From the NCBI GenBank assembly GCA_020444065.1, contig JAHLLQ010000001.1, positions 620,001 through 684,000 on the forward strand: a DNA stretch of 64,000 nt. Direction: 5' to 3'. A program made the position numbers and the translations under genes. The first letter of the stretch is position 1. Every line of letters starts with the position of its first letter. This stretch comes from a bacterium. Lineage in GTDB: Bacteria; Sumerlaeota; Sumerlaeia; SLMS01; JAHLLQ01. The notes beneath the pieces were generated by a model. That model saw only the letters and a list, made by a program, of their open reading frames with translations, was not told the origin of the DNA and made no database searches. Positions 46,889 through 50,772 of the stretch are shown here, in pieces.

Positions 46889-47434
46889 CTAGAATTTCCA
46901 GCCCGTTCCTGCTGTCCACTCCTGCATCATGGCGAGGTGCCGCTTCCCGTTATTCACGTACTTCCCGGTGTTGTAGTAGGAACCCTTCACATCTTCCTCG
47001 GTGAGTTCCCGAACAACGCGCCCCGGAACGCCAAGAACCAGGCTGCGCGCCGGGATCCTCTTGTCTTCCGCGATCACGGCGCCTGCGCCAACGATGCACT
47101 CCTTCCCAATGACGGAGCGATTCAGAATCGTGGCACTCATTCCGATCAGACATCCGGGCTCGATTTCGCAAGCATGGATCATCGCCAGATGTCCAACGGT
47201 GATGTCTTCTTTGATGATACAGGGCTCGCCTTCGCCGGTGTGCAGAACGCTGTTATCTTGGATGTTCGAGCGCTTCCCGACATAGATGGGCTCGAGGTCG
47301 CCGCGCAGGACGCAACCGTACCACACGGAGGCATCTTCCTCGATTTCGACCTCTCCGATGATTACGGCCGTGGGGGCGACAAAGGCATTTGGGTGGATCT
47401 TGGGCACTCGGCCCTCGAATGGAATAATCGGCAT
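46889..47434 (-). CDS. Gamma-class carbonic anhydrase family protein
   Basis: This 181-aa left-handed beta-helix protein has hexapeptide repeats (VIIGEVEIEEDASVW and on) and family metal-site regions NIQDNSVLHTGEGEP and GHLAMIHACEIEPG. The usual HG of GHxxxxHG is HA here. IGMSATILNRSVIG follows. Members hydrate CO2 with three His ligands or serve as acyltransferase-like proteins (YrdA, PaaY). It is the first gene of the leftward set, with 21 bases before the glycosyltransferase start. Activity as a real anhydrase is not assured. Confidence 0.9.
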   Translation of the reverse strand: MPIIPFEGRVPKIHPNAFVAPTAVIIGEVEIEEDASVWYGCVLRGDLEPIYVGKRSNIQDNSVLHTGEGEPCIIKEDITVGHLAMIHACEIEPGCLIGMSATILNRSVIGKECIVGAGAVIAEDKRIPARSLVLGVPGRVVRELTEEDVKGSYYNTGKYVNNGKRHLAMMQEWTAGTGWKF

Positions 47435-47603
47435 GGTTCGTTTTCCTGCTGCCTCGGCTCGGAAATTGCACCAGTATTTAGCTGCAAGGTGCGGAAGACA
47501 GTTGAGTGCCCCAGCGAGGGCTGGTGCAACTCCAATGCCGCGCCACCGGCGCCCGCCCGCAACACGGACGGGTCAGGAAGACACAACGGAGGCTTCGACA
47601 AAC

Positions 47604-48767
47604 GTGCTCGGTCTGCTCGGAAGACGAGGTATTCGGCTGGGGCGATTCTTCGGAGTCGACGTCCAATTAGACGTCTCCTGGTTCTTCATCTTCTTCATCC
47701 TGATCTTCTTCGCGGCCAACTGGCTGGGCGAAGTCCCAACCGTTACGGGGACACAGGCCTGGGTCTTTGCGATCCTGGGCGTGGTTCTGTTCTTCCTCAG
47801 CCTTCTGGCCCACGAGTTCGGGCATGCATTCACCGCCCGCGCGTTCGGCATCAAGACCCACGCGATCACGCTTTTCATGTTTGGCGGCGCGGCCCAAATG
47901 GAACGCGGGCCGAAGCGTCCGACCGCCGAGTTCTGCATCGCGCTCGCCGGTCCGGCCGTGTCCTTCATAACAGGTGTCGCCTTTGGCGTCGCGTGGTATC
48001 TTCTGCGCAACACAAGCATATCCCCCGGAATGCTCAACATCCTGGCCTATCTAGGCTCCATCAACCTGATCCTGACGTTCTTCAACCTCATCCCGGGATT
48101 TCCGCTGGACGGAGGTATGATGCTCCGTGCCGCCATCTGGGGAGTGTCGGGCAGCTATCTGCTGGCGTCGCGGATTGCCGGCGGTATCGGCCGCGCGTTT
48201 GGAGGGTTTCTCCTGTTTTGGGGTATCGCGGGAACCTTGACGATGCTCGCCGGAGCCAATGTTCCGGTCGTGTCGTCCGCAGGCCCGTTCACGGCCCTGA
48301 TCGGCTGGTTCATGATGGGCCTGGCGAAGGCGCAGCAGCGGCATGCCGAGGTGTCAGCGGTGCTCGGCGATCTGACGGTGCGCGACCTGATGCGGCCGAT
48401 TCACGCTGTCGTGCCGGCCGATACGCTAATCTCAGACGTGATTAAGTACTACTTCGGAGCGCTGCCCGGCGACCAATTCCCGGTGGTAGAGGACCAGCGT
48501 CTGCTTGGTCTGATTACACGGGCCCAGGTCGATGCCGTGCCGGAGCGCCAGTGGGATTGGGTCCGCGCCGGAGAAGTGGCTCGGCCATTCCGCCGCGAAG
48601 CCTCCGTCCCTCCCGGGCTGGGCGCCCTGGATGCACTGCAATTGCTGGCTGGGACCAATATTACGTCGGTGCCGGTTTTTCAGGATCGCCGACTGCTGGG
48701 CTATCTGTTCCGGAATGATCTACTGCAAGCTTACGAGAGCCGGAAGAGCCAGGTCGGCGTCAGTTGA
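47604..48767 (+). CDS. Site-2 protease family metallopeptidase with CBS pair (M50)
   Basis: This protein of about 387 aa is a membrane metalloprotease. The zinc motif HEFGH lies in the second TM segment (LLAHEFGHAFTARAFGI), and the second metal ligand is in NLIPGFPLDGGMML. Four to six TM helices precede two CBS domains (about 225-385), including MRPIHAVVPADTLISDV. It is a Rip/SpoIVFB-like intramembrane protease; CBS domains may sense nucleotides. GTG 47604 was chosen because GGAGG lies ten bases upstream and it gives the family N-terminus; ATG 47535 is also in frame. A terminator follows. Confidence 0.9.
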   Translation: MLGLLGRRGIRLGRFFGVDVQLDVSWFFIFFILIFFAANWLGEVPTVTGTQAWVFAILGVVLFFLSLLAHEFGHAFTARAFGIKTHAITLFMFGGAAQMERGPKRPTAEFCIALAGPAVSFITGVAFGVAWYLLRNTSISPGMLNILAYLGSINLILTFFNLIPGFPLDGGMMLRAAIWGVSGSYLLASRIAGGIGRAFGGFLLFWGIAGTLTMLAGANVPVVSSAGPFTALIGWFMMGLAKAQQRHAEVSAVLGDLTVRDLMRPIHAVVPADTLISDVIKYYFGALPGDQFPVVEDQRLLGLITRAQVDAVPERQWDWVRAGEVARPFRREASVPPGLGALDALQLLAGTNITSVPVFQDRRLLGYLFRNDLLQAYESRKSQVGVS

Positions 48768-48847: not shown

Positions 48848-49393
48848 TCATTCTTCGCCGGACCTGTTTCCATCACCGGCACACTGGAGATCGCACGTAT
48901 CGGTCTCGCAAAGCTCGCACTGCTCCGGACCGGGACAGCAGAAGTGGTAGTCGGCAAACTGCTTTAGAAACTCGCGGGAGATCTTGCGATCGCTGCGGGC
49001 GTACTGCAGAAAGGTCAGCAAGCGCTCGCGCGTCTCACTGCTGACGAGATGCTCGATCTTGCATGAATCGATGCTTGCCTGCTCTTCAGAAACCCCCAGC
49101 ACATCCGTGAAGAAATGCACGAAGGAACGGTTCGCAACATGGACATCGTGCGCCACGCGCAGACCCTCGTCCGTCAGCCCCAAGAACCGATTGTGGTCCT
49201 CGGAGACGTACCCCTTGCCCTTGAGGGCTTTGAGGCTAACCGAAGCCGAGCCCGGCGTGATGTCGAGTTCCCGGGCCACGTCGGTGACGCGGGCATAGCC
49301 CTGACGCTTCAGGAGGTCCTGAATCGCCATCAGGTAGTGAGCCATGCTATGGGTCACTTCCTGGCCTTCAAATTCCTTCCAAGTCGGCTGCAT
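48848..49393 (-). CDS. DtxR/MntR-family metalloregulator with Cys-rich tail
   Basis: This protein of about 181 aa has an N-terminal winged helix (YLMAIQDLLKRQGYARVTDVARELDITPGSASVSLKALKGKGYV) and a dimerisation/metal domain with HFFTDVLGVSEEQA and CKIEHLVSSETRERL. The Cys and His at this position match DtxR primary-site ligands. The last 30 residues are Cys-rich (FCCPGPEQCELCETDTC and one more Cys), about seven Cys in all. Such a tail could bind an Fe-S cluster or zinc. ATG 49393 has GGAG six bases upstream; 49405 is possible. Targets are unknown. Confidence 0.85.
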   Translation of the reverse strand: MQPTWKEFEGQEVTHSMAHYLMAIQDLLKRQGYARVTDVARELDITPGSASVSLKALKGKGYVSEDHNRFLGLTDEGLRVAHDVHVANRSFVHFFTDVLGVSEEQASIDSCKIEHLVSSETRERLLTFLQYARSDRKISREFLKQFADYHFCCPGPEQCELCETDTCDLQCAGDGNRSGEE

Positions 49394-49569
49394 CCAATGC
49401 TCCATCTCGTCGATTCTCGCCGCCTGGGGAGAATCCGGGTCAATCGTACCCCATCCTGGAGCAAAAACCCCGCCACGGCAAGCGGCAAATCTCTCCCTGC
49501 TCGCCGCTGATTTCCCCCTCGTCAAACCCCATCCCGCATCGTACAGTCCCTTTGCCTGGAGGAACACTG

Positions 49570-50772
49570 GTGAAGCAAATTGCGATTCTCCCCATCACGA
49601 TCTGCTTGTTGCTGCTCGCTGCGAACGCACCGCACGCGATGGCCGACGAAATCCACTGCAGTCTCTGCGGCCAGATTATCAGCGGCCAGTACATGGAGTA
49701 CAAGACGGCGGACGGAAAGAAATTGAGCGTCTGCCAGCACTGCGCCGACACGAAGCCCAAGTGCGCACTCTGCGGCATTCCAACGAACAATCGCGCCGGT
49801 GGGGGCAAACCCGCCCTTTGTGATAATTGCCGACGCACGGCGATGTCCTGCGACCGGTGCGGGCATCTTATCACGGGCAAGTACGTCACCTACCGTCCCG
49901 CAGGAAAGAGTGAGATTCGTGTGTGCGAGCGCTGCGAGCAGGCCTTGTTGAAGTGCTCGGTTTGCGGAGTTCCATACAAGGCGACGGATCTGCGCCGATC
50001 GCCGAATGGACAGATCTGGTGTACCGATTGCCTTGCAAAGGCAAAGATCTGCAATCTCTGCAAGAACCCAATCAACGGATCATACTACGAGATCCCATTC
50101 CTGGATGGGCAATGGTGCGCCGACTGCTTCGAGCACAAACTGCACTGCAGCACCTGCGGTCGGCCAATGGATGAACCGGCGGCGTCGCTCTTCGATGGGC
50201 GACACGTCTGCCGCGAGTGCTATAAGACCAGCGTGACGGGAACGGAGAAGCTGGAAGAGATCCGGGATGAGCTCGTCCCGGAATTTCGGAAGCTCTTCGG
50301 CCGTCCGGTGCATCCCCCACCGATCCGAGCCGTCGCCGCCTCCGAGTTGCGCGGCGCAATGGTTGAAGGAGAGATCTATCTGCCCGAGGATGAAGAAGGG
50401 AAGGTCCCCATCGTCCGTGAGATGGGCCTCTTCCGTGTGCGAGATGGCGTGCAGGAGATTCTGATCCTCGACACAATGCCCGAAGACATGGCGTGGGAAA
50501 CAGTCGCCCACGAGTTGGCCCACGCCTGGCATTATCAGCAGCATCCCATGTCACGGGATCCGGTGATTGTCGAGGGCTTCGCCCAGTGGACGGCCGAGCA
50601 GCTTTGTTACAAGACATACCATCGTACGACGCTTGATCGCCTGCGGAATCGAGAGGACTTCTACGGTCTCGCCTTCCGCACAATGCAGCAGGTTGAGTTG
50701 AAAGACGGCACCCGCGGCGTTCTAAAGGCTCTGGAGGAAAACGAACTCCCATCAGGCGTCGGAGGCTATTGA
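49570..50772 (+). CDS. Secreted LIM/zinc-ribbon metallopeptidase, DA1-like
   Basis: This protein of about 400 aa has a signal peptide (VKQIAILPITICLLLLAANA). Eight to ten CxxC pairs follow (about 28-215), forming tandem LIM-like zinc ribbons such as CSLCG, CALCG, CDRCG, CNLCK and CSTCG. The C-terminal half has the gluzincin motif AHELAHAWHYQQH with a downstream VEGFAQW Glu ligand. LIM domains with an HExxHAW peptidase are the plan of plant DA1 peptidases. GTG 49570 has GGAGG seven bases upstream. The next gene starts one base after its stop. Substrate is unknown; an exported location is unlike plant DA1. Confidence 0.85.
   Translation: MKQIAILPITICLLLLAANAPHAMADEIHCSLCGQIISGQYMEYKTADGKKLSVCQHCADTKPKCALCGIPTNNRAGGGKPALCDNCRRTAMSCDRCGHLITGKYVTYRPAGKSEIRVCERCEQALLKCSVCGVPYKATDLRRSPNGQIWCTDCLAKAKICNLCKNPINGSYYEIPFLDGQWCADCFEHKLHCSTCGRPMDEPAASLFDGRHVCRECYKTSVTGTEKLEEIRDELVPEFRKLFGRPVHPPPIRAVAASELRGAMVEGEIYLPEDEEGKVPIVREMGLFRVRDGVQEILILDTMPEDMAWETVAHELAHAWHYQQHPMSRDPVIVEGFAQWTAEQLCYKTYHRTTLDRLRNREDFYGLAFRTMQQVELKDGTRGVLKALEENELPSGVGGY

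Follow-up and report, generated by a model that had tools for sequence, protein, structure and literature searches.

The P0001 locus

The gene designated P0001 occupies positions 49570..50772 on the + strand of the window, by which we mean the whole 64,000-nucleotide stretch of DNA that was analyzed, and encodes a protein of 400 amino acids, as read from the open reading frame and from homologues. A Shine–Dalgarno-like GGAGG (49558..49562, +), read from the sequence, is situated seven bases 5′ of the GTG start, and no sigma-70-like promoter was found between positions 49300 and 50900. A chance ORF was ruled out, since the gene is conserved in six other genomes. From the N-terminus, the protein comprises a signal-peptide-like segment (residues 1–25; 49570..49644, +), assigned from hydropathy and an AxA motif recognized by eye, followed by three LIM-like units and a predicted peptidase domain. 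Unit 1 (C30–C87; 49657..49830, +) consists of two CxxC...CxxC fingers, unit 2 (C94–C154; 49849..50031, +) follows, and unit 3 (C161–C217; 50050..50220, +), which is matched by Pfam LIM at residues 161–220, adjoins the peptidase. The gluzincin (HExxH + Glu) domain (residues 223–400; 50236..50769, +), assigned from an AlphaFold2 model and VIA-align comparisons, includes the zinc-binding and catalytic motif HELAH (residues 314–318; 50509..50523, +) and the motif EGFAQW (50572..50589, +), which contains the presumed zinc ligand Glu335 in the arrangement HExxH-x16-E.

A gene for a DtxR/MntR-type metal-dependent regulator is divergent from P0001 (48848–49405, −; the longest ORF reading extends to 49567). 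Just upstream of its likely ATG is a 10-nt inverted repeat (49412–49435), which is not tied to the peptidase. Two genes upstream of P0001 is an M50 site-2-type protease with CBS domains (47424–48767, +).

Conservation and distribution

When 61 genomes were searched with the whole protein (its own and 60 others, 21 of the latter from outside the phylum), seven genomes, including its own, were found to carry the gene, in one copy each. It was present in 5/5 genomes of its family including its own (4/4 others) and in 2/3 genomes of another family of the class, and this search found it in 0/7 genomes of the sister family within the order. A phylum search over 40 of the same genomes returned the same seven. 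All 24 cysteines and the HExAH and EGFAQW motifs were invariant in the seven-row alignment of P0001 with its relatives, L002–L007.

A plasmid search with P0001 gave no match, and a single-sequence scan of genome contigs returned seven stretches, none of them a relative. A profile-guided scan of genome contigs detected at least 48 loci. Loci L008–L055 were recruited by the patterns AHE[MLY]AH[AL]W and [ILV][VAN]EGFAQW, so that the family counts are lower bounds and the conservation of HExAH and EGFAQW in these loci is partly by construction; both motifs are also kept in L002–L007, which were found by whole-protein search. Eight rows were dropped before counting: L008, L009, L010 and L014 as identical to L002, L003, L004 and L007, respectively, L049, L050 and L053, which were treated as truncated, and L055, an M1 aminopeptidase. 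This left 47 proteins among the matches listed, P0001 included, of which L011–L013 are close relatives of one another. The phyla represented among the matches listed were Sumerlaeota, Omnitrophota, CSSED10-310, Acidobacteriota, Verrucomicrobiota and Armatimonadota, together with a proteobacterium and many Chloroflexota; the nearest among them was Candidatus Sumerlaeota/Sumerlaeia. Residues H314, E315, H318, E335 and Y365 were identical in 47/47 aligned proteins among the matches listed, the spacing from HExxH to the Glu being x15, x17 or x18 in L041, L015, L048 and L054.

The zinc-finger array

The 24 cysteines of P0001 make up twelve CxxC pairs, running from C30 to C217, which gives six putative zinc sites in three LIM-sized units. 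The earlier note had described tandem LIM-like zinc ribbons; these are present, but were understated in light of the twelve pairs, the three units and the Pfam LIM match. The latter scored 33.4 bits against a cut-off of 22.9, and no other Pfam family exceeded its cut-off. A heme protein was ruled out, as the CxxC pairs are without a following His.

The number of CxxC pairs varied among the 47 proteins of the matches listed: twelve in 13 proteins, eight or nine in 10, four in 21, three in two and none in one. Pfam LIM was matched by 27/47 of them at E ≤ 0.001. All of the three-unit proteins among the matches listed (13/13) kept 24/24 cysteines, and their finger-to-finger linkers were 6 residues long in 65/65 cases; over all 47 proteins, again among the matches listed, the short linkers had 6 residues in 116/118. 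This departs from the canonical LIM spacer of two residues between two zinc modules, which is also the distance between the fingers of a unit in our alignment of human PINCH/LIMS1. Unit 3, nearest the peptidase, is common to nearly all relatives among the matches listed, each of its eight Cys positions being Cys in 44 to 46 of the 47 proteins, with the last position an Asp in two of the 47. The finger sequences alternate, the odd/even division being the best of 10 splits (12.63 vs. 5.95 for the next), and the array thus consists of three two-finger units. Six unrelated fingers were ruled out by the same test.

A model of the array alone, built from 13 sequences, had a pLDDT of 92.2 and a pTM of 0.69. 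Foldseek placed the LIM4–5 tandem of PINCH1 first (E 4.6e-5), from which the P0001 units differ by having four extra residues between the fingers and all-Cys ligands. Rigid VIA alignment of the array to PINCH LIM4–5 gave only Z 3.5, tied with small ribosomal proteins, and does not discriminate LIM from other small zinc folds. Because of this low score, we refer to the array as LIM-like (treble-clef-type) and not as canonical LIM.

Loss of zinc ligands in homologues, which the earlier note had regarded as telling against its reading, was seen only for the fingers of the distant relative L046. This Armatimonadetes protein has a signal-peptide-like start and zero CxxC pairs, yet scores 30.3 bits with the DA1-like profile, over the cut-off. 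The Verrucomicrobiota proteins L048 and L054 have one LIM-like unit with Asp as the last ligand, the spacing HExxH-x18-E and a long C-terminal extension.

The peptidase domain

An AlphaFold2 model of P0001, generated from seven sequences, had a pLDDT of 85.0 and a pTM of 0.66, and the placement of the LIM array relative to the peptidase in it is uncertain. A whole-chain Foldseek search with this model returned nothing at E ≤ 0.001, the best match being human MATCAP at 0.089, and we therefore relied on VIA-align and on the separate array model. The best VIA match for model residues 223–400 was the M1 peptidase 1z1w (rmsd 2.8 over 150 residues), with a Z of 10.9 that is above the guide value of 8 and below that of about 13 for mostly helical models, scores under these values possibly reflecting only a common arrangement. 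The M4 protease vibriolysin MCP-02 gave Z 8.8 and rmsd 3.9 over 158 residues, and the best rows listed were mostly M1, M3-like and M4 peptidases. These comparisons suggest that P0001 carries a gluzincin fold (clan MA). No different peptidase fold was seen, and the gluzincin site that had been described from the letters of the sequence is in place, with HELAH at 314–318 and the downstream Glu at 335. In gluzincins, two His and a Glu bind the zinc and the Glu of HExxH is the general base; by its sequence, P0001 would use His314, His318 and Glu335 as zinc ligands and Glu315 as the general base. The PDB entry 3cmn, a "putative hydrolase with a novel fold" from Chloroflexus aurantiacus, aligned with 173 residues of model 219–400 (Z 9.8, rmsd 4.0), and is possibly a solved cousin of the P0001 peptidase domain.

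Since M1 aminopeptidases headed the solved folds and M4 proteases came further down, P0001 might be a general scavenging or housekeeping M1/M4-like peptidase, in which the zinc fingers only stabilize the protein. The gluzincin fold around HExxH...E is indeed shared with family M1 (aminopeptidase N type), and a PDB profile search with P0001 also found M1 around the active site, although in that alignment the stretch leading to the Glu is two residues shorter in P0001 than in aminopeptidase N. However, Pfam Peptidase_M1 reached only 12 bits on P0001 against a cut-off of 27.7 and was matched at E ≤ 0.001 by only 11/47 proteins among the matches listed, vs. 38 for the DA1-like family. Moreover, the M1 N-terminal and ERAP1-like C-terminal domains were not listed by Pfam for P0001, whereas the true M1 control, L055, had both of them listed and DA1-like not. 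Six invariant fingers also seem to us much for mere stability, and a housekeeping role is improbable. An M1 aminopeptidase identity for P0001 was rejected on the sub-cut-off M1 score and the unlisted flanking domains.

Relationship to DA1 and other LIM-peptidases

Plant DA1 is a ubiquitin-activated peptidase with the site HEMMHx15EE, and was likened to Roseiflexus proteins, according to Dong et al. (2017, PMC5322733). The earlier note held that P0001 resembles DA1 and proposed a comparison with the DA1-like HMM. By this measure (PF12315), P0001 itself scored 17.1 bits, below the cut-off of 25, and was not one of the 38/47 proteins among the matches listed that were matched at E ≤ 0.001. DA1-like was nevertheless the family most often matched, and L047, L031, L046 and L040 were over its cut-off. 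The resemblance thus holds through the relatives, one step removed, and not for P0001 by its own score. Run over the P0001 genome, the DA1-like profile gave no match, and none was obtained from any control genome either.

Several features of DA1 are nonetheless recognizable in P0001. LIM-like fingers precede a HExxH...E gluzincin site as in plant DA1/DAR proteins (Arabidopsis DA1), and HELAH-x16-E corresponds to HEMMH-x15-EE with the last Glu at equal spacing, an arrangement kept in the six relatives from the whole-protein search. Homology to the Roseiflexus-type group extends over a LIM-like unit and the peptidase, as seen by tblastn and in the 47-row alignment and tree; L040, from Roseiflexus sp., is a P0001 homologue with a tblastn E of 3e-18. 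The LIM-peptidases of Chloroflexota (Roseiflexus, Chloroflexus) share LIM-like unit 3 and the peptidase core with P0001, but have one or two LIM-like units and no signal that we could see. Plant DA1, by contrast, is an intracellular enzyme with UIMs that is switched on by ubiquitylation, as described in PMC5322733. P0001 instead begins with a signal-like segment and carries three LIM-like units, and it offers no space for N-terminal UIMs, most of the 29 residues ahead of the first CxxC belonging to the signal peptide. No UIM was among the 11 Pfam families listed for P0001 up to E 10, a list from which the HMMER filters drop most very weak matches.

Bacterial LIM-peptidases are an already known kind of protein. 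They are probably described by Burroughs et al. in 2011. As early as 2007, PMC1781342 pointed out a LIM domain in Chloroflexus aurantiacus. What is new, as far as searchable papers show, is the exported-looking three-unit clade, its fixed 6-residue spacing and the phospho-signaling neighborhood of some intracellular forms. Our literature search, for which most subscription journals were out of reach, found no paper on exported bacterial LIM-peptidases among the papers listed.

Export and phylogeny

The start of P0001 has a mean Kyte–Doolittle value of 2.91 over 14 residues, followed by ...PHAMA|DE, and was identified by eye as a Sec-type signal peptide. The signal peptide proposed earlier therefore appears as an exported-looking N-terminus by hydropathy and inspection, and P0001 is likely exported, judging from its sequence.

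In the tree, P0001 belongs to a clade of 14 rows among the matches listed (support 98/95), whose members come from Sumerlaeota, Omnitrophota, CSSED10-310, Acidobacteriota (L019) and an unclassified MAG (L015). Three LIM-like units were found in 13/14 clade rows among the matches listed, while L019 has two. With the label "exported" assigned from hydropathy and reading, the tree requires two changes of this label, compared to a shuffled mean of 14 (47 rows among the matches listed); as the root is unplaced, gain and loss of export are not separable. L046, L048 and L054 are exported-looking and fall outside the 98/95 clade. These three and L041 have long branches, which limit what the tree can support, and the join of L006 and L007 with the P0001 group carries a warning. 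The signal-less rows (30 among the matches listed) all have one or two units, and 29/30 are from Chloroflexota, the remaining one being the proteobacterial L041.

If the hydrophobic start had been misread, or served as a membrane anchor, P0001 would not be exported and its peptidase would work at the cytoplasmic face, just as the signal-less Chloroflexota forms are presumably inside the cell. The signal reading rests on hydropathy and inspection, and two clade members fit it imperfectly: in L006, the hydrophobic stretch occurs only in the in-frame sequence upstream of the first ATG, GTG or TTG, and in L005 a stretch other than that adjoining the first Cys is the most hydrophobic. On the other hand, a strongly hydrophobic stretch (mean ≥1.9) before the first CxxC was present in 13/14 clade rows among the matches listed, several of which also have a small-residue cleavage motif by eye, whereas the 30 rows labelled signal-less among the matches listed reached a hydropathy of at most 1.16 or started too near the first CxxC to score. 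We thus consider a cytoplasmic location of P0001 very unlikely.

All-cysteine LIM-like arrays are, to our knowledge, unusual outside the cytoplasm. By eye, the exported-looking relatives L012, L013, L015 and L019 have starts of twin-arginine-like appearance, as might be expected if zinc were loaded before export; P0001 is without such a start.

Genomic neighborhood and host gene content

In a BLAST comparison of 27 sources, members of the exported clade had flanking genes in common only where they were close relatives, many of the flanks being short (0.3–1.5 kb a side for L002–L007). No counterpart of the window's DtxR-type, M50 or hexapeptide-repeat genes was seen in the flanks of the other loci examined. 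SDR matches in the flanks of L013, L026 and L027 look generic, as do histidine-kinase matches in those of L006, L033, L034, L038, L040 and L044.

In the Anaerolineae loci L018, L045 and L047, the signal-less form is found in a cluster with genes for a Ser/Thr kinase, PP2C, FHA and zinc-ribbon proteins, an FHA-ABC transporter and VWA, as identified by Pfam for L045 and L047 and by a home-made profile and BLAST for L018. The cluster is conserved around a two-LIM DA1-like peptidase (L045, 643–15124; L047, 1730–15314; L018, 365–11665), its zinc-ribbon proteins are of the double-zinc-ribbon type, and in L045 it also includes a zinc-ribbon subtilase. A VWA gene followed the peptidase within 60 nt in 4/54 sources among the matches listed (L018, L032, L045 and L047) and was found at 4.5 kb in L042. 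Lone kinase-like matches, with no other partners, were seen at L008 and in the window, both with exported genes, and at L053. These results suggest a connection to phosphorylation for some of the intracellular forms.

The search of the host genome for E2 gave no match, and no control genome matched in that search either. ThiF-type E1 homology was represented by one strong match and one below the cut-off, and matches over the cut-off were also found in 11/14 control genomes. It is plausible that the host has no ubiquitin system, and ubiquitin is unlikely to be the trigger of P0001. The LIM profile matched only the P0001 gene in the host genome. DsbB was not found there, though six control genomes matched; DsbD_TM and TatC were present, and a VKOR-like match was below the cut-off.

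The combination of 24 invariant cysteines with an exported-looking protein, next to a divergent gene for a DtxR-type metal regulator, raises the question of whether the array could be a metal or redox sensor, in which zinc loss or Cys oxidation releases or blocks the peptidase as a periplasmic zinc or thiol-stress switch. With no DsbB match and a DsbD_TM match, the host may have a reducing pathway into the periplasm, although the sub-cut-off VKOR-like match leaves an oxidizing arm possible. However, no DtxR-type neighbor was seen beside any of the other loci examined, and the signal-less relatives have an equal core, so that the combination of fingers and peptidase does not depend on a periplasmic location. 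We therefore regard such a switch as unlikely. For the exported clade as a whole, it is quite unlikely that the zinc loading or thiol state of the six-finger array gates a periplasmic gluzincin in place of ubiquitin, as an ancestor or cousin of the DA1 switch.

Proposed function of P0001

Our preferred reading, to which we assign a probability of roughly 0.6, is that P0001 acts, once exported, as a zinc endopeptidase of the DA1-like kind whose array serves to dock protein substrates without ubiquitin. The protein would cross the inner membrane, fold around seven zinc ions and work in the periplasm or outside the cell. The LIM array would hold a protein substrate in the manner of a docking arm, and its third unit would be part of the catalytic module. 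Ubiquitin would play no part in this action; in place of the UIM/ubiquitylation switch that sits on an equal core in plant DA1, P0001 would rely on substrate docking, or have no trigger.

The enzyme class and zinc architecture, as predicted here, are well supported by the sequence. The docking role is inferred by analogy with the LIM region of DA1, which binds the substrate WUS in yeast two-hybrid, as reported in PMC11143343. According to PMC5322733, DA1 carrying the C274Y change in its LIM-like domain loses both ubiquitylation and peptidase activity, and since ubiquitylation was also lost, the effect on peptidase activity may be indirect. No conserved partner gene that might point to a pathway was found in the flanks compared.

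If the preferred reading is right, P0001 places the LIM-peptidase core known from a major regulator of plant growth where ubiquitin cannot be the trigger. With the core in a ubiquitin-free compartment, its intrinsic activity and the role of its LIM-like unit would become testable in a small bacterial protein. Such an enzyme would be consistent with ubiquitin control being an addition of the plant lineage, and suggests that the LIM-peptidase design can work outside the cell interior without ubiquitin.
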